A DNA stretch of 64,000 nt from Brachynemurus nebulosus (taxonomy: Eukaryota; Arthropoda; Insecta; Neuroptera; Myrmeleontidae), in the NCBI GenBank assembly GCA_035578155.1, contig JAPWDM010000008.1:4485347-4549346 (forward strand), in the 5' to 3' direction. The notes beneath the pieces were generated by a model. That model was not told the origin of the DNA. It was given only the letters and a program-made list of their open reading frames with translations, and did not search any database. Position numbers and translations under genes: made by a program. Of this stretch, positions 3,677-64,000 are shown one piece after another; position 1 is the first letter of the stretch; each line of letters starts with the position of its first letter.

Positions 3677-3980
3677 CATAAAGTCCGCCTAGAATATACG
3701 GTCGAGTTGATTTTTTAATGAGGTCCACCGGGATCTTGCAGATCCGAAAACGCCAAAAACGGCAGTAATAAGCTACCGAACCGATTCTAAAAAATTTCTC
3801 ACTGTTAGAGAACTAAATTATTTTAGATGGATACAACTATGCAGCACAAAATCCGTTCGGGTTCTTCCAAAAATACCAAAATTAATTACCCAGCCGATTT
3901 TAAAAATTCTTTTACTCTCAGAAAGCTAAACTATTTTAAATAGGTACAGGTCTTAGATGAGATCCGACAGTGCCCAATAT
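3675..3980. other. No gene; probable repeat-derived DNA
   Basis: This lies between the (TA)n tract and the end of zinc-finger gene A. It holds two related sub-blocks, one with CTGTTAGAGAACTAAATTATTTTAG (3802-3826) and one with CTCTCAGAAAGCTAAACTATTTTA (3915-3938), suggesting a degenerate tandem repeat of about 113 bp. No protein is recognised. Confidence 0.4.
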
Positions 3981-4779
3981 TTGGAAATTCGCTATGTTAT
4001 GTAGATGCTGCGACAGGGGTATTATTTGTGTATTCTTTCTGACACTGTGTATTCTTTCATGTTGTTTTAGATGACTTAACCTAATAAATGTTTTAGTACA
4101 TATGTTACACTTGTATGGTCTTTCATCACTATGAATTATTTTATGTCTTTTTAAGCTATCCTTTCCATTAAATGTTTTATTACATGTATCACACGGAAAT
4201 AGTTTTTGGTAAACAATTGCAATCTGATGTTCTGTTAAATCTGTCGAATGATCTTCATCTACTTCATCTTCTTCAATTTTTATTTCCGTATGTAAACTGT
4301 TTAAATCTGGAAAAGATTCACTCAACTCCTAAGACATAATAATTATGTATTTTGATTAATTTGCATAATTTTATGCTGTTATTTTTTAATCCAAATCTAA
4401 TACTTACTAGTTTTATATTTTGCTCTTGTAAGTCTGTAAGGTTTTTTTTATCTGTCATACTGTTATTTTCTTGGGTCAATTTAATTGGTTCAAAAACTTT
4501 TGTTTCTGTTGATAACACTGAATTATTTTCAAACACTTCATCTTTTTTCACTTTAATTTCAAATTTACAATCAATTTCATCGACCGATTCATTCATTTCA
4601 TCTTTTTCCACTTTAATTTCAAATGTATGAAAATTTTGATGGTTCGGTCTAATCACTTCATCTTTTTCCACTTTAATTTTATTTGTATGGTCAGTTTCAT
4701 GGGCCGGTTCATTCAATTCATCTTTCTCCACTTTAATTAAAACTGTATGAAAATCGAATGCATTAATGGAATACTCCAT
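3936..4779 (-). pseudogene. Zinc-finger gene A, truncated to two C2H2 fingers
   Basis: Exon 1 runs 4779-4408 (124 codons) and carries four acidic I-K-V-E/K-K-D-E blocks. The donor GTAAGTA and an intron of 79 bp (4407-4329) lead to exon 2 at 4328, which opens E-L-S-E-S-F-P-D. The only fingers are C-D-T-C...H-K-I-I-H and C-N-I-C...H-E-R-I-H. After that the linker is replaced by about 35 unrelated residues, derived from a repeat shared with 49191, up to the stop at 3936. Relatives carry 5 to 16 fingers. Splicing and frame look intact, so a short protein could be made, but binding by two fingers would be weak. The promoter is split by a hAT element at 4857-5472. I call it a degrading copy. Confidence 0.75.
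3981..4022. repeat. Short sequence shared with 49191-49232
   Basis: GAAATTCGCTATGTTATG followed by AGATGCTGCGACAGGGGTAT occurs here and again at about 49191-49231, with one base different. In gene A this block forms the abnormal C-terminus, so an unknown repeat end was probably joined to the finger array. Confidence 0.7.
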
Positions 4780-9858: not shown

Positions 9859-11907
9859 TCAACCACTGTGAATTTTTTCATGCCTTCTTAAAACATCTCT
9901 ACGATAATATGTTTTAGAACACACATTACATTTGTATTGTTTTTCATCACTGTGTATTCCTTCATGTTGTTTTAAATGACTTAAACTAATAAATGCTTTA
10001 CGGCACTGATTACATTTATACGGTCTTTCAGCACTATGAGTTATTTCATGTTGCTTTAAACTAAACATTCGATTAAATGTTCTAGAACATATATTACATT
10101 GGTATGGTTTTTCACCACTGTGTATTCTTTCATGTTCTTTTAAATGATATGAAGTCATAAATGATTTCGAACATATGTTACACTTGTATGGTTTTTCACT
10201 ACTGTGAATTATTTCATGTGTTTTTAAAGAATGGGATCGGTTAAATGTTTTAGAACACACATTACACTTGTATGGTTTTTCACCGCTGTGTATTATTTCA
10301 TGTCTTTTCAAGGTTTCTTTTCGTTTAAATGTTTTATTACATATATTACACTGATACGGTTTTTCATCACTATGAATTTTTTCATGTGTTTTTAAATGTG
10401 TTAAATTACTAAATCCTTTAGAACACACATTACATTTATAAGGTTTTTCACCACTGTGATTTGTTTCATGCATTTTTAAATTAATTGGAGTTATAAATGT
10501 TTTAGTACATACGTTACATTTATACGGTCTTTCACCACTGTGAATTGCTTCATGTCTTTTTAAATTACTCTTTAGAGTAAATGTTTTATTACATGTACCA
10601 CACTGAAATAATTTTTGGCCAACACTTGCAATCTGATATTCTGTTAAATCTATTGAATGTTCTTCATGTTCTTCAATTTTGATTTCCGTATGTGAACTGT
10701 TTAAATCTGACAAAGATTCACTCCACTCCTAAAATATTATAATGATGTTATTTGATTAATTTGCACACTTTTATTTTAAATTAAAAATCACAAAGTGATT
10801 GAAAAAATTGTCCGGATCGGCCGGGAATCGAACCCAGGATCTCCTGGTAACTAGCCAGGCGTGCTAACCTCTACACCAACGATCCTATGCTCCGCAAGCG
10901 GTCGAGCCGGAGACCCATTCAATCACCTATGTGTATTAGTACTCTCTCTGATTCGAGAAACAGTTACAATTTTAATTTCAAATATTATCGAGTGCCTGTG
11001 AGCTGTGTGATTTTGTTATTTTTAAATTTGATTAATTTGCATAATTTTATTTTTTTATTTTTAATTCAAATAAAATACCAGGGTTAGCAACCGTACTATA
11101 ATTATAGTAGACATACTATAATTACATCCTTTTTACTATGTACTATCATGCCTTTACAATAATCCTTAAATCTACTATAATTTCTTAAATCTATTATAAT
11201 TTTTATAAACCATATTTTTAGACCGAAAAAACAAATTTTTCGTAATTAATTTCAAAATGTTTCTCATTTGGCGCCGAAATGATGACTGCTGATACAGTAG
11301 ATGACTGCTGATCAATCGTGATTTCAATATATATATAGTCCTCCGGCATTTTGACAACTGGCGAGCAAAAAAAAAAAAAGGTCGCCGCTCTCGCCTTCCG
11401 ATATAAAATGCGATAAAATTGAATTTGGCGGTTATTTTTTCTAATCTACTATAATTTTTTCAAATTTACTATAATTTTACGACCCTAGCACAATAATTTC
11501 ACTCTTCAGGGTTGCTAACACTGTAAAATACTTACCAGTTTTATATTTTGCTCTTGTAAGTCTGTCAAGTTTTTTTCATCTGTCCAACTATTATTTTCTT
11601 GGGCCAATTTAACTGGTTCAAAAACTTTTGTTTCTGTTGATAACACTGAATTATTTTCAAACGCTTCAAGTTCTTCCACTTTAATTTCAACTTCACAATC
11701 AATTTCATCGACCGATTCATTCATTTCATCTTTTTCCACTTTAATTTCAAATGTGTGAAAATTTTCATGGATCGGTCGTATCATTTCATCTTGCTCCACT
11801 TTAATTTTATTTGTATGGTTAGTTTCATGGACCGGTTCATTCACTTCATCTTTCTCCACTTTAATTAAAACTGTATGAAAACCGAATTCATTAACGGAAT
11901 TCTCCAT
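9859..11907 (-). CDS. Zinc-finger gene B: acidic SUMO-motif domain plus 9 C2H2 fingers
   Basis: Exon 1 is 11907-11536 (124 codons, M-E-N-S-V-N-E-F), with four I-K-V-E blocks. The donor is GTAAGTA. The intron (11535-10729, 807 bp) is swollen by a hAT MITE and a tRNA-like sequence. Exon 2 starts at 10728 (E-W-S-E-S-L-S-D), opens with I-K-I-E-E, and encodes nine C2H2 fingers joined by H-S-G-E-K-P-Y type linkers. The stop at 9859 comes from an extra T in what would be the next linker, so the array is probably shortened compared with genes C, G and F. The product is expected to be a nuclear DNA-binding regulator; no KRAB or ZAD domain is present. It lies head to head with gene C, about 2.4 kb apart, and its promoter is related to that of gene A. 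Exon limits rest on alignment with sister genes. Confidence 0.85.
10813..10885 (-). tRNA. tRNA-Thr(AGU)-like sequence in the intron of gene B
   Basis: On the minus strand 73 bases fold as a cloverleaf. The acceptor has six pairs plus a T7-C66 mismatch, the D stem is GTGT/GCAC, the anticodon stem is CCTGG/CCAGG with loop CTAGTTA (anticodon AGT), and the T arm is CTGGG-TTCGATT-CCCGG. The A box (TGGTGTAGAGG) and B box (GGTTCGATTCC) are intact, and a T6 run follows about 5 bases after the end. The anticodon arm to T arm resembles insect tRNA-Thr, but the acceptor and D arm differ. It may be a tRNA pseudogene or the head of a tRNA-derived SINE. It has the same orientation as the host gene. Confidence 0.65.
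11079..11523. mobile_element. hAT MITE beside the splice donor of gene B
   Basis: A perfect 8-bp TAAAATAC occurs at 11071-11078 and 11524-11531. The TIRs are CAGGGTTAGCAACC and CAGTGTTAGCAACC (one mismatch). The inner copy of the TSD ends at intron base +5 of gene B, so the GTAAG donor is kept but everything after base +12 is transposon. Interior motifs CTACTATAATT recur near both ends. No transposase is present. Confidence 0.92.
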
Positions 11908-14304: not shown

Positions 14305-16224
14305 ATGGAGAGTTTCGTCAATGAATTTGGTTTTCATACAGTTTTAATTAAAATGGAGAAAGATGATGTGAATGAACCGGGCCATGAAACTGATCATACA
14401 AATAAAATTAAAGTGGAGAAAGATGAAGCGACTAGACCGAACCATGAAAATTTTCACACATTTGAAATTAAAGTGGAAAAAGATGAAATGAACGAATCGA
14501 GCCATGAAATTGATAGTAAATTTGAAATTAAAGTGGAAGAAGATGAAGTGTTTGAAAATAATTTAGTGTTATCACAAGAAATAAAAGTTTTTGAACCAGT
14601 TAAATTGGCCCAAGAAAATAATAGTTTGACAGATAAAAAAAACCTTACAGACTTACAAGAGCAAAATGTAAAACTGGTAAGTATTAGATTTGATTTATAA
14701 ATAATTGAATAAAATTATGCAAATTATTCAAAATACATAATTATAATATTTTAGGAGTTGAGTGAATCTTGGTCAGATTTAAATAGTTTACATACGGAAA
14801 TCAAAATTGAACAAGATGAAGTAAATGAAGAACATTCAACAGATTTAACAGAACATCAGATTGCAAGTGTTGACGAAAAACTATTTCAGTGTGATACATG
14901 TAATAAAACATTTTCTACTTCAGGTAATCTAAAAGAACATGAAATAATTCATAGTGGTGAAAGACCATACAATTGTAATATATGTTTTAAAACATTTAGT
15001 AATTTAAGTATTTTAAGAAAACATGAACGAGGTCACAGTAATGAAAAACCATACAAATGTAATGTGTGTTCTAAAACATTTACTACTTCAAGTCATTTAA
15101 AAATACATAAAAGAATTCACAGTGGTGAAAGGCCATATGAATGTAACATATGTTCTAAAACATTTTCTGATTCAAATAATTTAAAAACACATGAAAGAAT
15201 ACACAGTGGTGAAAAACCATACCAATGTAGTGTGTGTTCTAAAACATTTATTACTTCAAGTCATTTAAAAAGACATGAAATTATTCACAGTGGTGAAAAA
15301 CCATACATGTGTAACATATGTACTAAAACATTTACTACTTCAAGTGGTTTAAAAAAACATGAAATAATTCATAGTGGTGAAAACCCTTATAAATGTAATC
15401 AATGTTCTAAAACATTTACTGATTTAGGTAATTTAAAAATACATGAAAGAATTCACAGTGGTGAAAGACCATATCAGTGTAATATATGTACTAAAACATT
15501 TAGACAGTCAAGTCATTTAAAAAGACATGAAATTATTCACAGTGGTGAAAAATCATACAAGTGTATTGTGTGTTCTAAATCATTTAACCAATTCAGTGAT
15601 TTAAAAAGACATGAAATAATTCATAGTGCTGAAAAACCGTATAAATGTAAAATATGTCCGAAAATATTTACTGCTTCAGGTAGTTTAAAAATACATCAAA
15701 GATTTCACAGTGGAGAAAGACCGTATAAGTGTAATAATTGTTCTAAAACATTTACCACTTCAAGTCATTTGAAAACACATCAAAGAGTTCACAGTGGTGA
15801 AAAACCATATCAGTGTAATATTTGTTCTAAAACATTTACTGAGTCAACTAATTTAAGAAGACATGAAGGAATACACAGTGGTGAAAACCCATACAAATGT
15901 AATGTGTGTTCTAAAACATTTAACCAATTCAGTGGTTTAAAAATACATGAAATAATTCACAGTGGTGAAAAACTGTATAATTGTAACATATGTTTTAAAA
16001 CATTTACTTATTTAAGTAATTTAAAAATACATGAGAGAATACACAGCGGTGAAAAACCATACAAATGTAATGTGTGTTCTAAAACATTTAACCACTCCAG
16101 TACTTTGAAAAGACATGAAAGAATACACAGTGGTGAAAAACCATACAAGTGTAATACATGTACGAAAACTTTTACTTATTCACGTGATTTAAAGAAACAT
16201 AGAACAATACATACAGGAAAATAG
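14305..16224 (+). CDS. Zinc-finger gene C: acidic SUMO-motif domain plus 16 C2H2 fingers
   Basis: Exon 1 is 14305-14676 (124 codons, M-E-S-F-V-N-E-F). It carries I-K-M-E, I-K-V-E, I-K-V-E and I-K-V-E about 20 residues apart. The intron is 14677-14754 (GTAAGT to TTTTAG, phase 0, 78 bp). Exon 2 is 14755-16224 and encodes E-L-S-E-S-W, one I-K-I-E-Q-D-E, an acidic stretch, then 16 regular C2H2 fingers with H-S-G-E-K-P-Y linkers and a terminal H-T-G-K. The total is 613 residues. This is the most complete single-array member and serves as the family reference. It is expected to bind DNA in the nucleus. The four or five psi-K-x-E motifs suggest SUMO modification. The start is the only ATG in the conserved context. 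Its promoter is interrupted by the 13055-14165 element. Confidence 0.93.
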
Positions 16225-20397: not shown

Positions 20398-23118
20398 ATG
20401 GAGAATTTCGTCAATGAATTTGGTTTTCATACAGTTTTAATTAAAGTGGCGAAAGATGAAGGGAATGAACCGGTCCATGAAACTGACCATACAAATAAAA
20501 TTAAAGTGGAGAAAGATGAAGTGATTAGACCGAGCCATGAAAATTTTCACACATTTGAAATTAAAGTGGACGATGAAGCGTTTGAAAATAATTCAGTGTT
20601 ATCATCAGAAACAAAAGTTTTTGAACCGTCAACTAAATTGGCCCAAGAAAATAATAGTTTGACAGAAAAAGAAAACTTTACAGACTTACAAGAGCAAAAT
20701 ATAAAGCTGGTAAGTATTAGATTTGGTTTAAAAATAACAGAATACAATTATGCAAATTAATCAAAATACAATATAATATTTTAGGAGTTGAGCGAATCTT
20801 TGATAGATTCGAACAGTTCATATACGGAAATCAAAATTGAAGAAGATGAAGTAGATGAAGATCATTCCAGTGTTGATCAAAAACTATATCAGTGTGACAC
20901 ATGTAATAAAACATTTACTACTTCAGGTAGTGTAAAAAAACATAAGATAATTCACAGTGGTCAAAAACCATACGAATGTAACATATGTACTAAAACATTT
21001 ACTACGTCAAGTGAATTAAAAACGCATGAAAGAACTCACAGTGGTGAAAAACCATACAAATGTAATGTGTGTTCTAAAACATTTAATCATTCGAGTGCTT
21101 TAAAAATACATGAAATAATTCATAGTGGTGAAAGGCCATACGAATGTAATATATGTTTTAAAACATTTAATAATTTAAGTAATTTAAAAAGACATGAAAG
21201 ATTTCACAGTGATGAAAGACCATACAAGTGCAATATATGTACTAAAACATTTACTAATTTAACACACTTAAAAATACATGAAAGAACTCACAGTGGTGAA
21301 AAACCATATCAGTGTAATATTTGTTCTAAAGCATTTACTGAGTCAAGTAATTTAAGAAGACATGAAAGAATACATAGTGGTGAAAAACCATACAAATGTA
21401 ATGTGTGTTCTAAAACATTTAACCAATCCAGTAGTTTAAAAAAACATGAAATAATTCATAGTGGTGAAAATCCTTATAAATGTAATGAATGTTTTAAAAC
21501 ATGTAGTAATTTAAGTAATTTTAAAAAACATATGAGAGTGCACAGTGGTGAAAAACCTTACAAACGTAATACAAGTACGAAAGCTTTTACTTATTCACGT
21601 GATTTACAGGACCTGACCTATGAAACTAACCATACAAATAAAGTGGAGAAAGATGAAGTGATTAAATCGAGCCACGAAAATTTTCACACATTTGAAATTA
21701 AAGTGGAAAAAGATGAAATGAATGAATCGGGCCATGAAATTAATAGTAAATTTGAAATTAAAATGGAAATAGATGAAATATTTGAAAATAATTCAGTGTT
21801 ATCAACAGAAACAAAAGTTTTTGAATCAATTAAATTGCCGCAGGAAAAAAGTAGTTTGACAGATAAAAAAAACCTTACAGACTTACAAGAGCAAAATATA
21901 AAACTGGTAAGTGTTAGATTTGAATTAAAAATAACAGAATAAAATTTTGCAAATTAATCAAAATATATAATTATAATATTTTAGGAGTTGAGTGAATCTT
22001 TGCCAGATCTAAACAGTTTACATACGGAAATAAAAATTGAAGAAGACGAAGTAGATGAAGATCATTCAACAGATTTAGTAAAACATAAAATTAAACGTGT
22101 TGGCAAAAAACTTTTTGAATGTGATATATGTACTAAAACATTTAACCGGTCAAGTAATTTAAAAACACATAAAAGAATTCATAGTGGTGAAAAACCTTAT
22201 GAATGTAATCAGTGTTTTAAAACATTTACTACTTCATATTATTTAAAGATACATGAAAGAATACACAGTGGTGAAAGACCATATAAATGTAATGTGTGTT
22301 CTAAAACATTTAGCCACTCCACTGCTTTAAGTGGACATTATAAAATGCAGTGTGGTGAAAAACTGGATAAATGTAATATATGTTTTAAAACATTTACTAC
22401 TTCAAGTGATTTAAAAAAACATGTAAGAATTCACAGTGGTGAAAAACCATACAAGTGTAATACATGTTCAAAAACATTTAATACTCCAAGTCATTTAAAA
22501 ATGCATGAAAGATTTCATAGTGGTGAAAAACCATACAAGTGTAACATATGTTCTAAAAAATTTACTACTTCATCTATATTGAAGACACATGAAATAATTC
22601 ATAGTGATGAAAGGCCATACAAGTGTAATGTGTGTTCTAAAACATTTAAAGGTTCAAGTAATTTAAGAAGACATGAACGAGTTCACAGTGATGAAGAACC
22701 ATACAAATGTAGTGTGTGTTCTAAAACATTTAACCATTTAACAAATTTAAAACAGCATGAAAGAGTTCACAATGGTGAAAAACCATATCAGTGTAATATT
22801 TGTTCTAAAACATTTACTCAGTCAAATAATTTAAGAAGACATGAAAGATTACATAATGGTGAAAAACCATACAAATGTAATGTGTGTACTAAAACATTTA
22901 ACCAATCCAGTAGTTTAAAAATACATGAAATAATTCATTGTGGTGAAAAAGGTTATAAATGTAATGAATGTTTTAAAACATTTGCTTATTTAAGTAATTT
23001 AAAAAGACATGAAAGAATACACAGCGGTGAAAAACCATACAAGTGTAACATATGTAAGAAAACTTTTACTTATTCACGTGATTTAAAAAAACATAGAACA
23101 ATACATACAGGAAAATAG
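20398..23118 (+). CDS. Zinc-finger gene D: fused double gene, three exons, about 20 fingers
   Basis: Exon 1 (20398-20709, 104 codons) is shortened and has one intact I-K-V-E block. Exon 2 (20785-21906, 374 codons) holds I-K-I-E-E, eight C2H2 fingers and a ruined ninth (C-to-R and C-to-S), and then runs straight into a second acidic domain with I-K-V-E and I-K-M-E, ending in the usual N-I-K-L and donor GTAAGT. Exon 3 (21985-23118, 377 codons) has I-K-I-E-E and 12 fingers; the third is C2HC (H-Y-K-M-Q-C). All junctions are phase 0 and the frame is open, giving 855 residues. A deletion or unequal exchange evidently joined the finger exon of one gene to the first exon of the next. The same fusion is in gene F, so it predates the duplication. 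The protein would carry two acidic and two finger modules. Confidence 0.85.
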
Positions 23119-32293: not shown

Positions 32294-32806
32294 TATGGTG
32301 CTACGCTTTCACCAAATTCCTAAACATTCGATTACTTGTCCTTTGACCATGAAAAACAACTTTCCAACCCTCATACGTCACTTAATTAAATAAATATTTT
32401 GTATATATAAGACAATGTAACTAATCAATATTGTTCATTTTTTGTATCATCAAAAGTAAGCCCGGATATTGTAATTTTTGGTTTTTGAAATAATAAATTT
32501 AATTATTACTTAAATTTAATTGTTGTTATTTGATAAATTCGAATCAAAGTGAAAAATAGTAAAATCGAAGATAAACTATATCAAAAGATTATACTTAAAA
32601 ATAATACATCTTTGAGTGTTAATCCTCAAATAAAATAATTGATTAACTGGTGACAGCAACTGCATATCAAGCTGCCCAATAAATTGTCAACGTAGTTGCT
32701 AACTGGAAGCATCGAAGATCATTGGTCCACTTTCCGTAATTGTTCAAGACGACATCAAGGGATCAAAGGATCACTGGTTCATCACCTCCAATCGCTCGAC
32801 ACGACA
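32294..32806 (+). repeat. 5' LTR of the errantivirus-like element
   Basis: 513 bp, same length and apparently the same sequence as 39236-39748. It holds AATAAATATTTTGTATATAA (32388-32407), a likely TATA or polyadenylation region. Confidence 0.95.
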
Positions 32807-32811
32807 AAAAT

Positions 32812-32830
32812 TGGTGACAGCGGTGGGATC
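32812..32830 (+). other. Primer-binding site
   Basis: TGGTGACAGCGGTGGGATC begins five bases after the 5' LTR. It would pair with a tRNA 3' end in ...CACCGCTGTCACCA. The G-T-G-G-G-A-T portion resembles tRNA-Leu 3' ends; the exact tRNA is not certain. Confidence 0.7.
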
Positions 32831-32909
32831 CAGCTGTCTACCGTTGTATCATCAAAGGCACACGGAATCATCTCCCAGGGATACCTGCACCGAGACCCGT
32901 GAATACTTC

Positions 32910-34193
32910 ATGAATACAACCCCAACTGGATCAACCAAGGAACACATCCTTTCGACAACATCATCGTGGAGAGAATCGGAAACGTTAGAAGAAGGCAGCA
33001 GTAGCACAATTTCACAAGTAAGTGATTCAAGTTATTCTCGTCTTCCCGTTTCACATTCTCCAACCTTATATTTAACCCTTTCACAAGAATCTATTTATAA
33101 CAATTTAAACAAAATGAACCTCGACAATACTATTCCGGACACAACAAACCTTACTAACGATGATACACAAAGTGAACCGGGCACATCTAGCTCTATTCAC
33201 ACAAATCGTAGGCCCAATTTTAATTATATACATTGGATTGACAATTTTAACCCAACCGCAGAAGGTGCTTTACACTTTTTAACTCAGGTCGGTAATACGT
33301 TGAAATTCGCTCCAGATTACTTACATGACGAAATTTTGGCTTACACGTATAATAAATTACCTCTTTCTATACAAGAGAATGTATCTGAAATAAATTATAA
33401 TGAAATTAAACGAGTCATCAAACAAAAATATCAAACCACGCGCACTCAATTTTTAGTTGAAAACGATATTGCAAAATTAAAGCAATCACACGGAGAAAAT
33501 ATTCAGTCATACTTTTCAAAAGTAAATTCATTGAGAAATGAACTACTGAATATTCTTCGATCTGAATCACATATCACTCAATTCATGCAAAATAAAATAT
33601 TTGTGGAAAAAAGTATTGCTAATAGATTTTTAGTCGGATGTAACCCTCAAATTTCTATTCATCTTATGAATCCACAATATGAATTTGCCAGTATAGATGA
33701 TATTTTCCCTTACGCGTTACAATATGAAAATAAATTACAAGAATTAAATACTTTCAATAAAAATTCTAATTCTAATAGCCAGTTAGAAAAATATTGTAGG
33801 AATTGTAAAACAAAAACTCACAACACACGGGATTGTAGGAGGAAAAATAACCACCCTAATTCAAATAATAATAATTTTAATTTAAATAACAATAGTAATA
33901 ATAATACAAGTAACCAACAGTTAAAAACTTACGAATCTAAATTTTGTAGTTATTGTAAAAATAGAGGTCATGTGATTGAAGAGTGTCGTAAGAAAAGATT
34001 TAATGAAAATCACAGAACCCCTCTTCCCCAATCCATTAGACAAATCGAAAATCATTTAAACTCCAACACATCCAATCCAGGGGTCGTGGATATGGATCTA
34101 ACCCATCAAGACCCAACCATCACATCAACCAACCCTCAACAATCAATAACATTGGAAGATTTTACATATCCAGCTATTCCAATAATTCCCTAA
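32910..34193 (+). CDS. gag: Gag polyprotein of the errantivirus-like element
   Basis: 427 residues from the ATG at 32910. A second candidate ATG is near 33115. It is the structural protein of virus-like particles. Two C-C-H-C zinc knuckles are seen at about residues 296-309 (C-R-N-C...H...C) and 346-359 (C-S-Y-C...H...C), with an Asn-rich linker between them. The frame is intact and ends at 34193. The slippery heptamer TTTAAAC at 34055-34061 is in the right phase for a -1 shift into pol, whose frame is open from 34040. A GTAAGT at 33018-33023 could be a splice donor for a subgenomic env message, as in errantiviruses, but this is inference. Confidence 0.92.
   Translation: MNTTPTGSTKEHILSTTSSWRESETLEEGSSSTISQVSDSSYSRLPVSHSPTLYLTLSQESIYNNLNKMNLDNTIPDTTNLTNDDTQSEPGTSSSIHTNRRPNFNYIHWIDNFNPTAEGALHFLTQVGNTLKFAPDYLHDEILAYTYNKLPLSIQENVSEINYNEIKRVIKQKYQTTRTQFLVENDIAKLKQSHGENIQSYFSKVNSLRNELLNILRSESHITQFMQNKIFVEKSIANRFLVGCNPQISIHLMNPQYEFASIDDIFPYALQYENKLQELNTFNKNSNSNSQLEKYCRNCKTKTHNTRDCRRKNNHPNSNNNNFNLNNNSNNNTSNQQLKTYESKFCSYCKNRGHVIEECRKKRFNENHRTPLPQSIRQIENHLNSNTSNPGVVDMDLTHQDPTITSTNPQQSITLEDFTYPAIPIIP
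34055..34061 (+). promoter_or_regulatory. Candidate -1 ribosomal frameshift site
   Basis: TTTAAAC reads T-TTA-AAC in the gag frame. The pol frame has its last upstream stop at 34037-34039 and stays open afterwards. 13 nt downstream a weak stem ATCCA/TGGAT (34075-34091) can form. Shifting here would give Gag-Pol. Confidence 0.7.
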
Positions 34194-39926: not shown

Positions 39927-40865
39927 ATGGAGAATTCGGTCAATGAATTCGGTTTTCGTACAGTTTTAGTTAAAGTGGAGAAAGATGAAGTGATTAGAGC
40001 GAGCCATGAAAATTTTCACATATTTGAAATTAAAGTGGAAAAAGATGAAATGAATGAACTGGTCGAGGAAATTAATTGTAAATTTGAAATTAAAATGGAA
40101 AAAGATAAGGCGTTTGAAAATAATTTAGTGTTATCAAGAGAAACAACAAAAGTTTTTGAACCAGTGAAATTGGTCCAAGAAAATAATAGTTTGACAGATA
40201 AAAAAAACCTTACAGACTTACAAGAGCAAAATATAAAACTGGTAAGTATTACATTTGAATTATAAATAACAGAATAAAGTTATGCAAATTAATCAAAATA
40301 CATAATTATAATATTTTAGAAGTGGAGTGAATCTTTGCCAGATCTAAGCAGTTTACATACGGAAATCAAAATTGAAGAAGATGAAGTTGATGTAGAACAA
40401 TCAACAGATTTAACAGAACATCATATTGCTAGTGTTGATCAAAAACTATTTCATTGTGATACATGTAATAAAACATTTACTCTAAAGTGTAATTTAAAAA
40501 GACATGAAATAATTCATAGTGGTGAAAGACCATATAAATGTAACATATGTACTAAAACGTTTATTAGATCAAGCCATTTAAAAGATCATGAAATGATACA
40601 TAGTGGTGAAAGGTTATATGAATGTGATGTATGTTCTAAAACATTTGGTAATTTAAAATACTTAAAACAGCATGAAAAAATTCACAATGTTGGAAAACCG
40701 TATAATTGTAATATATGTTCTAAAACATTTACTCGAAAAGAAAACTTAAAAATACATCACAGAATACACAGTGGTGAAAAACCATACAAGTGTAATATAT
40801 GTACTAAAACATTTACTTATTCAAGTGCCCTAAAAAAACATGGAGCAATACATACAAAAAAATAG
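39927..40865 (+). CDS. Zinc-finger gene E: acidic domain plus 5 C2H2 fingers
   Basis: Exon 1 is 39927-40241 (105 codons, M-E-N-S-V-N-E-F). One acidic block is missing compared with gene C, leaving V-K-V-E, I-K-V-E and I-K-M-E. The intron 40242-40319 has GTAAGT and TTTTAG. Exon 2 (40320-40865) opens K-W-S-E-S-L-P-D because the first codon is AAG, then I-K-I-E-E and five C2H2 fingers, ending H-T-K-K and a stop. The total is 286 residues, the shortest intact-looking member. Finger 3 has the altered linker H-N-V-G-K-P-Y. The 3' flank starts with the family CATGACTTCAATAAGG block. It may be regulated by the LTR inserted just upstream. Confidence 0.88.
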
Positions 40866-43430: not shown

Positions 43431-46400
43431 TTAATAATATTCCCTGTAACGAGTTGGCGGTAGAAGTTGACTTCGTCGCCGTAGTGTCATTTGGCTGGCA
43501 GTTTCCGTATTTTTTGAAGCTTCTGGAGGTTGGGTGACATCAGACGTAAGTAGTTCTGGCATTATTAGCGTCGGTTTTTGAAGAATAGGTTTCAGTTGGT
43601 TTCGATGTTTACGCCTTTCTACGCCATCAACCATAACGATCCAAATATTTTTTGATATTCGTCGTAGTACCTTCCCCTCCCTCCAAGACCAAGAAGTATT
43701 TGATTTGTACATTTTTACAAAAACTCGTTGACCAACTGAAATAAATTTTTCTTTTGTTCTCTTATTGTAGTTTCTTTCTTTATTCTTGGCATATTTTTTA
43801 GAAATAATTTTTGAATTTGGATGAAGTAAATCAAGAAGAGTTCTTAACTGACGTTTGAAAAATCGTTCAGCAGGAGTAGCATTTGTAGCTGGATGTTCTG
43901 TATTTCTATACCGAAGTAGGAAGTCTTGAATGGCTTCAATTGTAGGTGCAGTGTTATGAAGTATTTTCTTCATTGCCATTTTGAAAGTTTGGACGTTTCG
44001 TTCAGCGAGCCCATTACTCATTGGAGAGTATGCAGGAGTTAAAGTAAGTTTTATGCCAAGTCTTTTGCAAAAGTTACGAAATTCAAAAGAAGTGAACCCA
44101 GTTGCATTGTCACAAACTATTTCTTCGACAATGCCATATTTAGAAAATAAATTTTTTAGAACTGAGATAGTAGTTGTAGAACTTGTGTCACTGACACGAA
44201 TGACCTCTGGCCATCTAGAGTATGAATCAATAATGATAAGGAATAGTTGATTGTGGAATGGTCCACAATGGTCCATGTGGATACGGGACCATGGAGAATT
44301 AGAAGGATGCCAATTTCCTAGTGGCACTTTTACTGGATTCTTTTCGACTGCGGCACAGGCAGTGCAGTTATTTGCAAGATTTTCGATCTCTTGGTTGAGT
44401 TCAGGCCACCAGAAGTATCTTCGTGCTTCACTTTTCATACGAACGATACCCTGATGGGTAGCATGTAGGTACTGAAGAAGTTGAGGTCTGAATTTTGAAG
44501 GAATGATAGTTCGAATACCCCATAGAAGACATTCATTGTGAATACTAATTTCGTTACGAATTTTGAAGTAAGGCTCTAACTCAGAAGTTTGTAGGAACTT
44601 TGGCCACCCAGTAAGTACAGCTTCTTTTAATTTTTTAAAAGTAGGGTCAGTAGCGGTCTCTTTGGCAATATCGTGTGCAGTAATAGGAAGTTCCTGCTGA
44701 ATTTGTTCCTGAATTTGGAACACAACGCTATGCATGCTGTAATCATGTTCATCGAAGTTTTTATCTTCACCTTCAGGTAGACGTGAAAGACCATCGGCAT
44801 GACCCAATTTGGTAGTAGGTACGTACTCAATTTTAAATTGGTAACCCATTAGAAATATAGCCCATCGCTGAATTCGATTTGCAGTAGTCACGGGAATACC
44901 CTTTTTTGAACCGAAGATTTGAAGTAGACTTTTGTGATCGGTTTGTAGAAGAAATTCGCGACCCCACAAATATTGATGAAATTTACGTATAGCATAAACA
45001 ACACCAAGAGCTTCTCTTTCTACTTGAGCATATCTCTTTTCGGCATCGGTCAGAGTCTTTGAAGCATAAGCAATTACCTTTTCTGAACCGTCGGGATATC
45101 TATGGAAAAGTACAGCTCCAAGGCCGATCGAGCTTGCATCTGTAGCAAGAATTATGGGTACATTTGGGTCGTAGTGAGCTAAGTAGTTTGGAGATATAAG
45201 AGCCTCTTTTATTTTGTTTAAAGATATTTCACACTCAGTTGACCAAAACCAGGGTACATTCTTTTTTCGAAGACGATTAAGCGGATATAGAAGTTCAGAG
45301 AAGTGACTGATAAATTTCGAGTAGTAGACCACCATACCAATGAAACTCTCTAACTCTTTCAGATTGGTTGGACGCTTCATATTAATTATCGCTGAAGTTT
45401 TACGGGGTGATTTATGGATACCATCCTTATCTACTATAAACCCCAAAAATTCTAAGGAGTCCTGGAAGAAGTGCGATTTAGAAGATTTGATACGAAAACC
45501 AAATTCGCGTATTCGTTGAAGTACAGCAGCTAGATTATGTAAATGTTCAGAAGAATTACGACCTGTGACAATAATGTCATCTAGGTACCACGCGACACCT
45601 GGTAGTCCTTGTAGCATTTGATCCATTACTTTCTGGTAGATCATGGGACTTGAAGCAACCCCGAATGGAAGTCTTGTATAACGTAGTAATCCCTTATGTG
45701 TATTTATTACCAATAATTTTTTGCTCTCCTCATCAACTTCTATTTGTAAGTACGCATCTGAAAAGTCAATAACAGTAAATTGTTGACCACCATTTAGAGC
45801 AGCAAAAATACTATCAGTTGTAGGAAGTGGGTAGTGAGGGACTTGAAGAGACTGATTCAATCCAGTACTAAAATCAGCGCAGATTCGGACCTGTCCATTT
45901 GGTTTACGAACAGCCACAATTGGAGAACTCCACTCGCTATGATCGACTGGTTCTAGAACGTTTTGTGAAATTAACCGATTCAGTTCTTGTTCCACTAATT
46001 CACGTGTAGCAAAAGGTAGTGGTCGGGCCTTACGAAAAACAGGAACGGCATCAGGTTTCAAATATAAATGGGCTTTAAACTTTTTACAATGACCCAAACC
46101 ATCTTGAAAAAGATCGGCGTACTCATTTAATAACCCCTGTAGAGTAGAAGAATTTGAAGAATTTGAAGTAACCGAAGTGCCCGTATCAGAATTTTGTAAA
46201 AATACGGCTAAAATAGAAGATTTGTCACGAAATTGACGTAGACAGTGTGAGTCGAGCTTTAGATTGTCAATCCAATCACGACCTAACACATTATTAGTAG
46301 TGCCAGTAGCAAAAAATAATTTTAAAGTAGTGCATGTCCCATTGAAACAAACATTTACCATGCTTTCTCCAAGCAAAGAAATATTATGACCAGAATAACT

Positions 46401-47495: not shown

Positions 47496-47543
47496 TTTGT
47501 ATGTAGTAGAAGAAATGAAAACACACGAAAATGTTTTTTAATT

Positions 47544-49686: not shown

Positions 49687-52600
49687 ATGGAGAATTTCGT
49701 CAATGAATTTGGTTTTCATACAGTTTTAATTAAAGTGGCGAAAGATGAAGGGAATGAACCGGTCCATGAAACTGACCATACAAATAAAATTAAAGTGGAG
49801 AAAGATGAAGTGATTGGACCGAGCCATGAAAATTTTCACACATTTGAAATTAAAGTGGACGATGAAGCGTTTGAAAATAATTCAGTGTTATCATCAGAAA
49901 CAAAAGTTTTTGAACCGTCAACTAAATTGGCCCAAGAAAATAATAGTTTGACAGAAAAAGAAAACTTTACAGACTTACAAGAGCAAAATATAAAGCTGGT
50001 AAGTACCTATTAGATTTGAATTATAAATAACAGAATAAAATTATGCAAATTAATCAAAATACATACAATATTTTAGGAGTTAAGTGAATCTTTGATAGAT
50101 TCGAACGGTTTACACCGTTTACACACAGAAATCAAAATTGAACAAGATGAAGTAGATGAAGATCATTCCAGTGTTGATCAAAAACTATATCAGTGTGACA
50201 CATGTAATAAAACATTTACTACTTCAGGTAGTTTAAAAATACATAAAAGAACTCACAGTGGTGAAAAACCATATCAGTGTAATATGTGTACTAAAACATT
50301 TAATCAATCGAGTGCTTTAAAAATACATGAAATAATTCATAGTGGTGAAAGGCCATACGAATGTAATATATGTTTTAAAACATTTAATAATTTAAGTAAT
50401 TTAAAAAGACATGAAAGATTTCACAGTGATGAAAGACCATACAAGTGCAATATATGTACTAAAACATTTACTAATTTAACACACTTAAAAATACATGAAA
50501 GAACTCACAGTGGTGAAAAACCATATCAGTGTAATATTTGTTCTAAAGCATTTACCGAGTCAAGTAATTTAAGAAGACATGAAAGAATACATAGTGGTGA
50601 AAAACCATACAAATGTAATGTGTGTTCTAAAACATTTAACCAATCCAGTAGTTTAAAAATACATGAAATAATTCATAGTGGTGAAAAACCTTATAAATGT
50701 AATGTATGTTTTAAAACATTTAGTAATTTAAGTAATTTTAAAAAACATATGAGAGTGCACAGTGGTGAAAAACCTTACAAATGTAATACAAGTACGAAAG
50801 CTTTTACTTATTTACGTGATTTACAGGACCTGACTAGGGATGTCGTTTTTTAATCGATAAATCGAGAAATCGATTAATCGGAAGTATGGAAACCGATTTT
50901 TAATCGATTATTGATTTTGAGATCGATTCACACATCGATTTTTATTTTATGGAAATCGCGAAACGATTTTTTTTTTCAAAACATAAATTGCTTTTTTATT
51001 TATACTTTGCTATTTATTTATTAATTTAAATTTAAATTTATTATCGGTACTACGATTATTAAATTTTAAGCATCAAACGCATCAAATGCATATAATCAAA
51101 TGTCTATGCATCAAATCAAATTGTCAAAATTGACAAATTGACAACTGTACCATGTACAAAACAATAAAGTTTAGGCGGGAAATTTAAAACAAAACAAAAA
51201 ACTTTCATAATTTTTTTATCCCTTAATCTATAAAAAAAACTTCGTATGCAATTAAATAAAAACTTCTCAACATTTAGTAAAATTTAGATAATATTTATAC
51301 AATTATAGAGAAAGCAACGACAACTGCAAATGACTCATTCTCATAAATGTATCTCTTAGACAGACTCGTAATATAGCTATCTCTCACAGGATCTACTATC
51401 TAATATATTGAAAAAGGATAGTAGAAATTATAATATCTTTTATATGTGACAAAACTTTATTTTTGAAATGAGTCATTTTCTTTATATATAAATTTGACTT
51501 TAACATTTTTATATCAAATGAAAACAAAAATTGTCAACTTTGTTGTGATGTTGTGATTCATCTCTATACCACAGAATAAAATTCTAAAAAAATGTTGGTA
51601 ATTAAAGTATGTACACGCTTAATATTTTTCTTGTTAAAAGACTTCGAAAGTTAATCTTTCTGGATTATAAATTTTTACTTAAAAATTACCTCCACTTTTG
51701 CTACAGCAAATTTGAATCGATTTCTTGGAATCGATTTTGAATACAATCGATAATTTAAGTATCGATTCTTTTGTTGGCAATTACGAATCGATTCAATAAT
51801 CGATTTTTTTTTTTTAAAAACGACATCCCTAGACCTGACCTATGAAACTAACCATACAAATAAAGTGGAGAAAGATGAAGTGATTAAACCGAGCCACGAA
51901 AATTTTCGCACATTTGAAATTAAAGTGGAAAAAGATGAAATGAATGAATCGGGCCATGAAATTAATAGTAAATTTGAAATTAAAATGGAAATAGATGAAC
52001 CGTTTGAAATAAATAATTTAGTGTTATCAACAGAAACAAAAGTTTTTGAACCAATTAAATTGCCCCAGGAAAAAAGTAGTTTGCCAGATAAAAAAAACCT
52101 TACAGACTTACAAGAGCAAAATATAAAACTGGTAAGTATTAGATTTGGTTTAAAATAATAGAATAAAATTATGCAAATTAATCAAAATACTATATATTAT
52201 ATTTTAGGAATGGAGTGAATCTTTGCCAGATTTAAACAGTTTACATTCGGAAATCAAAATTGAAGATGATGAAGTAGATGAAGATCATTCAACAGATTTA
52301 ATAAAACATAAAATTGTACGTGTTGGCAAAAAACAATATCAGTGTGATACATGTAATAAAACATTTACTTATCCAAGTGATTTAAAAAGACATAAAAGAA
52401 TTCATAGTGGTGAAAAACCTTATGAATGTAATCAATGTTTTAAAACATTTACTACTTCAGGTAATTTAAAAATACATGAAGTAATTCACAGCGGTGAAAG
52501 ACCATATAAATGTAATGTGTGTTCTAAAACATTTAGCCACTCCACTGCTTTAAATAGACATTATAAAATGCAGTGTGGTGAAAAACTGGATAAATGTAAT

Positions 52601-53341
52601 ATATGTTTTAAAACATTTACTATTTCAAGTGATTTAAAAAAACATGTAAGAATTCACAGTGGTGAAAAACCATACAAGTGTAATATATGTTCAAAAACAT
52701 TTACTATTTCAAGTCATTTAAAAATACATGAAAGATTTCATAGTGGTGAAAAACCATACAAGTGTAATGTGTGTTCTAAAAAATTTACTACTTCATCTAT
52801 ATTGAAGACACATGAAATAATTCATAGTGGTGAAAGGCCATACAAGTGTAATGTGTGTTCTAAAACATTTAATGGTTTAAGTAATTTAAGAAGACATGAA
52901 CGAGTTCACAGTGATGAAGAACCATACAAGTGCAATATATGTACTAAAACATTTAATCATTTAACAAATTTAAAACAGCATGAAAGAGTTCACAGTGGTG
53001 AAAAACCATATCAGTGTAATATTTGTTCTAAAACATTTACTGATTCAAGTAATTTAAAAAGACACGAGAGAATACACAGTGGTGAAAAACCATATAAATG
53101 TAATGTGTGTACTAAAACATTTAACCAATCCAGTAGTTTAAAAATACATGAAATAATTCATAGTGGTGAAAAACTGTATAATTGTAACATATGTTTTAAA
53201 ACATTTACTTATTTAAGTAATTTAAAAATACATGAAAGAATACACAGCGGTGAAAAACCATACAAGTGTAATATATGTAAGAAAACTTTTACTTATTCAC
53301 GTGATTTAAAAAAACATAGAGCAATACATACAGGAAAATAG
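49687..53341 (+). pseudogene. Zinc-finger gene F: fused double gene interrupted by a hAT element
   Basis: Exon 1 is 49687-49998 (104 codons). The intron to 50076 has GTAAGTAC with 4 extra bases (CCTA). Exon 2 starts at 50077: I-K-I-E-Q, seven good C2H2 fingers and a ruined eighth. At 50835 a 997-bp hAT element enters; reading into it gives a stop after about five codons. Beyond it (51832-52131) the second acidic domain resumes in the frame seen in gene D, with I-K-V-E and I-K-M-E, and ends with donor GTAAGT. Exon 3 (52208-53341, 377 codons) has 12 fingers including the C2HC third one. As it stands the locus could give only a shortened seven-finger protein, unless the element is spliced out; the 3' exon could be used separately if it has its own promoter. 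Confidence 0.85.
50835..51831. mobile_element. hAT MITE inside exon 2 of gene F
   Basis: A perfect 8-bp GACCTGAC lies at 50827-50834 and 51832-51839. The TIRs TAGGGATGTCGTTTTT match exactly on both ends. Subterminal regions carry many AATCGATT palindromes. No transposase. The intact target sequence is seen in gene D near 21608-21622. Confidence 0.96.
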
Positions 53342-56166: not shown

Positions 56167-57830
56167 ATGGAGAAACCGGTCCATGAAAGTTTGCATATAT
56201 TTAAAATTAAAGTGGAGAAATATGAAGTGAATGAACCGCTCCATGAAACTGATCATACACGTAAAATTAAAGTAGAGAAAGATGAAATCGGTGTATCAGC
56301 CTGTCACATGAAACCTAAATTTGAAATTAAAGTTGAAAATGATAAAGTAAATGAACCAGTTCATGAAACTGACTTTCCATCTGATATTAAAGTGGAGAAA
56401 GATGAAGTGAATGACCTCAGTTTAGGATTATCGAGAGAAACTAAAATTTTTGAATCAACTCAGTTATCACAAGCAAATAATAATTTAACAGATCAAAAAA
56501 ATGTTGTGGACTTACAAGAGCAAAATATAAAACTGGCAAGCACTAGATCTAGATTATAAATTTCAGAATTATGTAAATGTTTTAATCAAAATACTTTTTA
56601 TCATTTTAGGAGTTGAGTGAATCCTTGCTGGATTTAAACAGTTTACATACGGAAATCAAAATTGAAGAAGATGAAGTAAATGAAGGTGATTCGACAGATT
56701 TAACAGAATATCAGATTGTAAGTGTTGATAAAAAACTATTTCAGTGTGATACATGTAATAAAACATTTCATAATTCAAGTAATTTAAAAAGGCATAAAAT
56801 AATTCACAGTGGTGTCAAACCATATGAATGTAAAATATGCACTAAAACATTTAATACTTCAAGTCATGTAAAAAAACATGAAAGAATTCACAGTGGTGAA
56901 AGACCATACAAATGTAATATTTGTTCTAAAACATTTAATCAGTCAAGTAATTTAAAAATACATGACAGAACTCACAGTGGTGAAAAACCACACAAGTGTA
57001 ATATATGTACTAAAACATTTACTCACTTACACGTTTTAAAAACACATGAAAGAATACACAGTGGTGAAAAACCATATCAGTGTATTATATGTACTAAAAC
57101 ATTTAGAGATTTAAGTAATTTAAAAAAACATGAAAGGCTTCACAGCGGTGAAAAACCCTATAAATGTAACATATGTTTTAAAACATTTACTCAGTCAGGT
57201 GAGTTAAAAAAACATGAAATCGTTCATAGTGGTGAAAAACCACACAAGTGTAATGTGTGTTCTAAAACATTTAGTGATATAAGTCAATTAAAAAGACATG
57301 AAATAATTCACAGTGGTGAAAAACCATACAAGTGTAATATATGTTCTAAGACATTTACTACTTCAAGTAATTTAAAAATGCATGAAAGAACTCACAGTGA
57401 TGTGAAACCATACGAATGTAACATATGTACTAAAACATTTACTACTTCAAGTCATTTAAAAAAACATGAAAGAATTCACAGTGGTGAAAGCCCATACAAA
57501 TGTAATGTTTGTTCTAAAACATTTAATCAGTCAAGTAATTTAAAAATACATCAAAGAATTCACAGTGGTGAAAAACCACACAAGTGTAACATATGTACTA
57601 AAACATTTACTCACTTACACGTTTTAAAAACACATGAAAGAATACACAGTGGTGAAAAACCATATCAGTGTAATGTATGTACTAAAACATGTACTACTTC
57701 AAGTGATTTAAAAAAACATGAAAGAATTCATACAGGCGAAAGGCCGTACAAGTGTAATATTTGTTTTAAAACATTTACTATTTCAGGTAATTTAAAAAAA
57801 CATAAAAGTATTCACAATGGTGACAGATGA
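56167..57830 (+). CDS. Zinc-finger gene G: acidic SUMO-motif domain plus 13 C2H2 fingers
   Basis: I chose ATG 56167 because M-E-K-P-V-H-E aligns with the repeat phase; the frame is open further upstream but without an ATG. Exon 1 (56167-56535, 123 codons) has four I-K-V-E blocks. The donor here reads CTG-GCAAGC, where all sisters have GTAAGT, so this would be a GC-AG intron (56536-56609). Exon 2 (56610-57830) has I-K-I-E-E and 13 fingers. The C2H2 ligands are kept in all, but finger 12 has F replaced by C. Fingers 1-4 and 8-11 are near copies of each other. The end is H-N-G-D-R and a stop instead of H-T-G-K. The total is 529 residues if spliced. It is the most diverged member of the cluster. 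Confidence 0.85.
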
Positions 57831-62417: not shown

Positions 62418-64000
62418 ATGGAGAATTCGATCAATGAATTCGGTTTTCATACAGTTTTAATTAAAGTGGAGAAAGATGAAGTGAATGAACCGGTCCATGA
62501 AACTGACCACACAAATAAAATTAAAGTGGAAAAAGGCGAAATGAATGAATCGGTTAATGAAATTGATTGCAAATTTGAAATTAAAGTGGAGGAAGATGAT
62601 GCGTTTGAAAATAATTTAGTGTTATCAACAGAAATAAAAGTTTTTGAACCAGTTAAATTGCACCAAGAAAATAATAGTTTGACAGATAAAAAAAACCTTA
62701 CAGACTTACAAGAGCAAAATATAAAACTGGTAAGTATTAAATTTGGTTTATAAATAATGGAATTGAAATGAAATTAATCAGGGGAAACGAAAGGTGGTGG
62801 AAATTTTTAATTATGAAAAGTTAAAACGCGGAAGCCTATTTTTGTTTTCGAAAACTCAAATTTATCAATATTTTACACATTTTTTTAATATTGATATTTG
62901 TATGATATTATTGACTTATTGTAGTATTTATTTATTGAACACGATAAAAATAACAGAATAATGTAAAACACAAGTGAGTAAAGCGGCCCCGGGGCCATTT
63001 AATATACTAGGCAAATTAGTTTGTATATCAAAATCCGTTTTTCAATTGTCCTAAGCAACATACTTTAACCTCTTTCAAAGTGTGATAATTAATAATAAAG
63101 TGCAATTATTTTTCATAAAAACCTGTATCCGCGCTTTAACTCTTTAAATACAATAATTTCCAGCCACATTTGTTTCTTTTTTGCAGTAAACATCGAAAAT
63201 ATCGCACCATATAGTATATTGCAATTTACTCTTAATCAAAATACATAATTATAATATTTTAGGAGTTGAGTGAATCTTTGCCAGATTTAAACAGTTTACA
63301 TACGGGAATCAAAATTGAAGAAGATGAAGTAGATGAAGATCATTCAACAGATTTAACAGAACATCAGATTGCAAGTGTTGACAAAAAACTATTTCAGTGT
63401 GATACATGTAATAAAACATTTACTCGTCCAAGTCATTTAAAACGACATGAAAGAATTCATAGTGGTGAAAAACCATACGAATGTAACATATGTACTAAAA
63501 CATTCATTAATTTAAGTCATTTAAAAACACATGAAAGAACTCACAGTGGTGACAGACCATACAAATGTAATGCGTGTTCTAAAACATTTAATCAGTTAGG
63601 TCATTTAAAAATACATGAAACAATTCACAGTGGTGAAAAACCATACAAGTGTAATATATGTACAAAAACATTTTCTACTTCAAGTCATTTAAAATATCAT
63701 GAAAAAATACACAGTGGTGAAAGACCATTTCAATGTTATATATGTTCTAAAACATTTAGTCGATTAAGTAGTTTAAAAGCACATGAAAGAATACACAGTG
63801 GTGAAAGACCATATCAATGTAATGTGTGTTCTAAAACATTTAACCAATCCAATGCTTTAAAAAGACATGAAATAATTCACAGTGGTAAAAAACCATACAA
63901 GTGTAATATTTGTTCTAAAACATTTAGTCGAAGAGAACATTTAAAAACACATGAAATAATTCATAGTGATTTAAAAAAAAACATAAAAGAATTCATAGTG
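62418..64000 (+). CDS. Zinc-finger gene H, incomplete at the window edge
   Basis: Exon 1 is 62418-62729 (104 codons, M-E-N-S-I-N-E-F) with three I-K-V-E blocks. The donor is GTAAGT. The intron (62730-63262, 533 bp) is longer than in sisters because of an insertion of about 455 bp. Exon 2 starts at 63263 (E-L-S-E-S-L-P-D), with I-K-I-E-E and seven good C2H2 fingers. After finger 7 the linker is broken: H-S-D is joined directly to L-K-K as in the second half of another finger, and a nine-A run (two more than in sisters) shifts the frame, so the last eight codons no longer read as a finger. The frame is open to the edge, so the true end is unknown. This could be a pseudogene in its 3' part. Confidence 0.8.
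62779..63234. mobile_element. Unclassified insertion in the intron of gene H
   Basis: Sister introns read AAATTAATCAAAATAC without interruption. Here TTAATCA occurs on both sides of about 455 extra bases (ending 62778 and starting at about 63235), consistent with a 7-bp target duplication. Clear inverted ends are not seen. It includes a GC patch, GCGGCCCCGGGGCC (62982-62995). Confidence 0.5.

Follow-up and report, generated by a model that had tools for sequence, protein, structure and literature searches.

The locus described here raises the question of what an acidic N-terminal domain, built largely from repeated I-K-V-E-K-D-E blocks, contributes to a cluster of C2H2 zinc-finger genes in the antlion Brachynemurus nebulosus. 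Within the window, by which we mean the whole 64,000-nucleotide stretch of DNA analyzed, a two-exon unit (an acidic exon 1 followed by a C2H2 finger exon) occurs in ten copies, A to J. A sequence-only reading had counted eight genes; that number holds for loci but not for domain copies, because D and E share one locus, as do G and H. The gene models, predicted from sequence alone, comprise the following features, listed with gene C first.

14305..14676, plus strand: gene C exon 1, acidic array of four units with IKVE-type cores at residues 15, 35, 55 and 75
14677..14754, plus strand: gene C intron, 78 bases, GT-AG, phase 0; the splice join gives V-K-L-E
14755..16224, plus strand: gene C exon 2, an I-K-I-E-Q-D-E block and then 16 C2H2 fingers
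4408..4779, minus strand: gene A exon-1 array, glutamate of unit 4 changed to lysine
3936..4328, minus strand: gene A exon 2, just two fingers before the frame exits the finger array
11536..11907, minus strand: gene B exon-1 array
9859..10728, minus strand: gene B exon 2, nine fingers
20398..20709, plus strand: gene D exon-1 array, unit 1 IKVA, about one unit absent
20785..21906, plus strand: D finger exon, eight fingers, running in frame into acidic array E (21619-21906)
21985..23118, plus strand: E finger exon, 11 fingers
39927..40241, plus strand: gene F exon-1 array, one unit fewer
40320..40865, plus strand: gene F exon 2, five fingers
49687..49998, plus strand: gene G exon-1 array, unit 1 IKVA, about one unit absent
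50077..50853, plus strand: gene G exon 2, seven fingers, broken by an insertion
51841..52131, plus strand: H acidic array
52208..53341, plus strand: H finger exon, 11 fingers
56167..56535, plus strand: gene I exon-1 array, most diverged, GC-AG intron
56610..57830, plus strand: gene I exon 2, 13 fingers
62418..62729, plus strand: gene J exon-1 array, one unit fewer
63263..64000, plus strand: gene J exon 2, seven fingers, frame reaching the window end

Exon 1 joins the finger exon in phase, and all introns are phase 0. Eight introns measure 74-79 bases, while those of B and J reach 807 and 533, with GT-AG ends throughout save for the GC-AG of I. In gene C, exon 1 runs for 124 residues up to a GTAAGT donor, and Pfam recognizes 16 zf-C2H2 stretches in the fingers. 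Tandem C2H2 fingers with SGEKP-type linkers were confirmed across the family: in the 76 of 89 fingers that fit the strict pattern, from which linker and contact variability were taken, the majority linker is S-G-E-K-P. Variation in these fingers peaks at contact positions -1, +3 and +6, which is what a protein family diversifying its targets should show.

Two of the loci carry a doubled unit. The D finger exon reads through, in frame, to a further acidic array (E), which is spliced to a second finger exon, and D-E thus reads as one gene with two arrays. The G-H locus resembles it (88-95 percent alike), with the equivalent junction split by about 997 bases (50835-51831) that have inverted ends TAGGGATGTCG and an 8-base target duplication, which we take to be the pattern of a hAT-type element; the junction region as a whole spans 50827-51839. 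Gene I is the most diverged copy, its intron (56536-56609) differing from those of seven others by 0.28-0.34. Gene A is probably a broken copy, since two fingers are followed by unrelated sequence; its unit 4 also lacks the glutamate of the core.

The repeated acidic blocks themselves are well supported. Exon 1 consists of up to four 20-residue units with the core I-K-V-E-K-D-E, and strict psi-K-x-E is intact in 27 of the 32 near-complete units. Over the ten copies, exon-2 and splice-join sites included, 1,537 residues hold 46 psi-K-x-E sites, a density of 3.0 per 100 aa. The negatively charged SUMO consensus, or NDSM, is described as psi-K-x-E/D followed by acidic residues (PMC5727262), and the proposed fit to it bears out: an acidic tail, scored as at least two D/E among the next six residues (a span of our choosing), follows 37 of the 46 sites. 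The five lost exon-1 sites are unit 4 of A (E to K), unit 1 of D and of G (E to A), and unit 2 of E and of H (psi lost). D and G have one strict exon-1 site apiece; both also retain an I-K-V-D remnant.

Further sites lie outside the exon-1 units. The sequence-only reading held that exon 2 always adds I-K-I-E-E/Q; I-K-I-E is present in all ten copies, but the next residue is E or Q in nine and D in H. That reading overlooked the splice join, where exon 1 ends in N-I-K-L (N-V-K-L in C) and exon 2 begins with E-L-S-E-S or similar, creating I-K-L-E or V-K-L-E in nine of ten copies; in gene F the join is I-K-L-K and the site is lost. Because the join adds a site, the five motifs assigned to each of C, B and G become six each in C, B and I, where equating the earlier "G" with our I is a guess. 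In spliced gene C, strict [VILMF]-K-x-E occurs at residues 15, 35, 55, 75, 122 and 140, and 5,000 residue shuffles of that gene gave a mean of 0.82 sites and a maximum of 5. Every one of the ten copies exceeds its shuffles (p 0.014 or less), although this comparison is generous because the units arose through internal duplication.

One part of the array might contact SUMO rather than accept it. Unit 1 reads V-L-I-K-V and then acidic residues, which we take to resemble the pattern of a SUMO-interacting motif, and LIKV, LIKM or LVKV with a charged tail is found in seven of ten copies (A, B, C, D, F, G and J), including D and G, where it persists despite loss of that unit's acceptor glutamate. 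However, the pattern occurs once per copy and is absent from E, H and I, and we regard it as very improbable that the motif is there for non-covalent SUMO contact or for some other modification.

Neither KRAB nor ZAD was matched in any of the ten exon-1 domains, which agrees, as far as exon 1 goes, with the earlier claim that the family replaces these domains. No Pfam family scored above its cut-off in these ten domains. Sub-threshold matches to DUF7658 (0.026, under cut-off) and F_actin_cap_B (0.057) appeared in one exon-1 domain each and were treated as chance. Residues 1-164 of spliced gene C returned no homologue at E<=10 from 577 candidates in a database of 5.8 billion proteins; this search covered proteins 0.55-1.75 times 613 aa long that share short exact words, and absence from the database is not proven by it. 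Animal proteins are present there: of 7,897 candidates scored against the full-length gene I protein, 7,886 matched, and numerous named finger proteins of animals appear in the 120 matches listed. Alignment-based searches for relatives in two contig collections, neither meant for animal genomes, gave 50 (viral_contigs) and 139 (genome_contigs) pattern matches, none of which was confirmed, and a profile search of the PDB found nothing at E<=10. AlphaFold2 modeled the exon-1 domain with a mean pLDDT of 35.4, without strands and with no helix reaching four residues. As evidence of disorder this is weak, because the alignment held only ten close copies and shallow depth alone can lower confidence; the acidic N-terminal tail is, on this prediction, probably disordered.

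These properties bear on a simpler explanation, in which the domain is an acidic transactivation or protein-binding region and psi-K-x-E is a by-product of a repeating acidic/hydrophobic block. The tail carries a net charge of -14 to -28 over 140-169 residues, which, together with the predicted disorder, is what such a region would show. Residue-level conservation divides on the point. The expectation that motif lysines and glutamates change more slowly than comparable residues was borne out for lysine, with 0 of 54 cells changed over six columns, compared with 9 of 89 at other lysines, where 4 of 10 columns are invariant (column Fisher p 0.026). It failed for glutamate (6/54 changed versus 22/223 at other glutamates), as a generic acidic region would predict. 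Such a region nevertheless does not account for the constant retention of the basic residue that follows psi, when the lysine three residues beyond is replaced by E, Q, N or I in certain units. We consider this explanation unlikely.

Codon analysis (175 columns, 10 copies, with one F residue shifted by script to hold register) gave a similarly divided picture. A three-class fit with a shared synonymous rate placed omega at 0.14 for psi, K and E, 0.41 for x and the tail and 0.83 for the rest (LRT 6e-9), and at near 0 for K alone (p 7e-7), on a gene tree that is poorly resolved, with deep supports of 28-58. The omega order was stable when each of six subsets was dropped (p from 3e-9 to 0.03). 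The proposed dN/dS check thus found a slower core in this simple fit, but the contrast was not significant once class-specific synonymous rates were freed, either by gene (p 0.36) or in three unit sets (p 0.32, 0.17 and 0.59). Between genes the NG86 ratio is mildly lower in the core (0.60 versus 0.87 in the spacer), and the parsimony N:S contrast, 6:6 in the core versus 181:62 elsewhere, falls short of significance (p 0.067). With gene I left out, the ratio is 1.21 for the seven-codon core and 1.13 for the spacer, and the core is not lower. Since the lysine is invariant and neither the glutamate nor the free-rate fits lend support, we read the lysine as kept and the whole psi-K-x-E motif as only suggestively conserved. 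Spacer positions 10, 11 and 16 after psi show high amino-acid change in the first unit set (6.9, 12.0 and 4.2 times the synonymous rate), which may reflect drift, misalignment or diversifying selection.

Alternatively, the array may be a recent 60-base coding minisatellite, its cores alike through common descent and conversion and not through selection on SUMO sites. Copies F and J are short of the full alignment by 20 columns, exactly one unit; D and G lack 21 columns and I lacks one. Because they begin within a fused frame, E and H miss the first 26 columns and two others. The first two cores mostly use GAG, compared with 16 of 263 Glu codons in exon 2 across the ten copies, and the synonymous rate seems low in the core (0.48 versus 1.20; freeing class rates p 0.09). 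The loss of significance under free rates also fits this account. Units within the same gene, however, have equal pS in core and spacer (0.25 and 0.24) alongside a fivefold gap in pN (0.08 versus 0.40), though such pairs are not independent, and at the junction and in exon 2, outside the exon-1 units, the site lysine is retained in all ten copies. A minisatellite is compatible with the other readings; as the explanation of core sameness we judge it improbable.

Our tentatively favored reading, to which we give somewhat less than an even chance, is that the tail is a SUMO acceptor that recruits corepressors. The locus would then hold a young, locally duplicating multi-C2H2 family in which a disordered acidic N-terminal tail serves as a multi-site SUMO acceptor. 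Every 20-residue unit would offer one psi-K-x-E, mostly acid-tailed, to the SUMO E2 Ubc9, and IKLE at the exon join and IKIE in exon 2 would be extra acceptor sites. Target choice would fall to the fingers, whose variation lies chiefly at DNA-contact positions, and SUMO on the tail would bring in corepressors that bind it, the SETDB1/HP1 machinery for example. In such a family the SUMO step, which vertebrate KRAB proteins get through KAP1, would sit on the DNA-binding protein itself.

Precedents from other animals give this scheme its shape. KAP1 auto-SUMOylation in humans and Su(var)2-10 in Drosophila are described as required for SetDB1 recruitment at transposons, in a review that also sets out the SUMO-spray idea (PMC9406493). 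Drosophila Bonus, a KAP-1 homologue, is reported to be SUMOylated at an I-K-Q-E site; the same report describes insects as having no KRAB proteins and finds most transposon families unaffected by Bonus depletion (PMC10672805). In Hemiptera, repeat content is reported as uncorrelated with finger expansion (PMC6444547). Taken together, these results are why we propose the tail itself as the SUMO carrier and why any transposon target is the weakest step of the mechanism. The sites might also be real SUMO acceptors that weaken or tune repression, as in FOG-2, which has four SUMO sites and is reported to repress more strongly without them (PMC3511347). The heterochromatin precedents favor repression instead (PMC9406493), and we regard a weakening role as quite unlikely.

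Is such a tail peculiar to this family? The sequence-only reading suggested that it would be a distinct repressor architecture in insects, which overstates the case, as acidic N-terminal tails bearing psi-K-x-E also occur in other finger proteins. As background we used 118 of the 120 finger proteins among the matches listed, those in which 30 or more residues precede the fingers as an N-terminal region (two were dropped); being mostly vertebrate, they are a poor control for an invertebrate. Their psi-K-x-E density is 0.27 per 100 aa against the 3.0 found here, ten of the 118 have three or more sites, and the acidic tail follows 45 of 111 background sites. Twelve hand-picked N-terminal regions of the 120 were inspected. 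A Schistocerca (grasshopper) protein (P0111) has three psi-K-x-E spaced 24 and 23 residues apart in acidic sequence before its C2H2 array, and acidic N-terminal regions with psi-K-x-E also occur in Ornithodoros (tick; P0098, two sites) and Gymnothorax (moray; P0061, five sites). A Geotrypetes (caecilian) protein (P0010) has six sites but differs in its precomputed KRAB match, PF01352. In all four the sites are sparser and, as far as inspected, are not copies of a tandem unit, and no homology with the acidic domain described here was detected. Since sparser psi-K-x-E tails occur elsewhere, we read the array as a dense tandem variant of a known principle; judged from these sequences, its tandem unit and site density are unusual within the compared set. 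Xenopus FAR repeats are a possible parallel.

Several expanding finger families share other traits with this one. KRAB zinc-finger proteins working with KAP1 are likewise multi-finger, with variable contact residues and proposed SUMO-dependent silencing; none of the ten exon-1 domains here, by contrast, has a KRAB match. The APEZ and zinc finger 271-like genes of pea aphid and milkweed bug are similar in forming clusters of multi-finger genes with signs of recent duplication, broken copies and no KRAB, but are described as having no domains beyond the fingers, whereas the window family has a conserved acidic exon (PMC6444547). FiNZ genes of cyprinid fish are comparable by description, with a lineage-specific N-terminal sequence on an expanding multi-finger family (PMC10547256). 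Titles and abstract openings in the open-access literature yielded no SUMO-motif array in an animal finger-gene expansion.

Some large invertebrate finger expansions have no known corepressor link, and a dense SUMO-acceptor tail is a testable candidate for one that fits the SUMO-spray idea (PMC9406493). The description of the aphid and milkweed-bug families reports no domain beyond the fingers, notes that insects have no direct KAP-1 orthologue and considers other partners worth seeking (PMC6444547). A stronger version, which we think rather unlikely, is that a tandem, length-variable SUMO-acceptor array acts as a KRAB substitute in an invertebrate multi-finger family, recruiting SUMO-reading silencers with array length as an adjustable repression dose. 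Were that so, such tails may be the missing effector of fingers-only expansions. If conjugation fails, the family would still be a clear example of an acidic linker that drifts fast yet keeps an invariant lysine for no evident reason.

Other features of the window accompany the finger genes. LTR retroelement frames sit between them at 43431-47537 (minus strand), where Pfam finds reverse transcriptase, RNase H and integrase, and at 32703-34190, which has a gag match. A tRNA-Thr (AGT) gene or tRNA-like repeat (10813-10885, minus strand), the single tRNA found in the window by Rfam and ARAGORN, lies in the 807-base intron of gene B; eight of the nine paralogous introns measure 74-79 bases. Lastly, when 600 upstream bases were compared by blastn at 1e-5, A, B, C, D, F, G and J shared 56-145 bases conserved among paralogues (84-95 percent). 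These stretches stop no more than 12 bases short of the ATG and may represent a short promoter or a splice acceptor.
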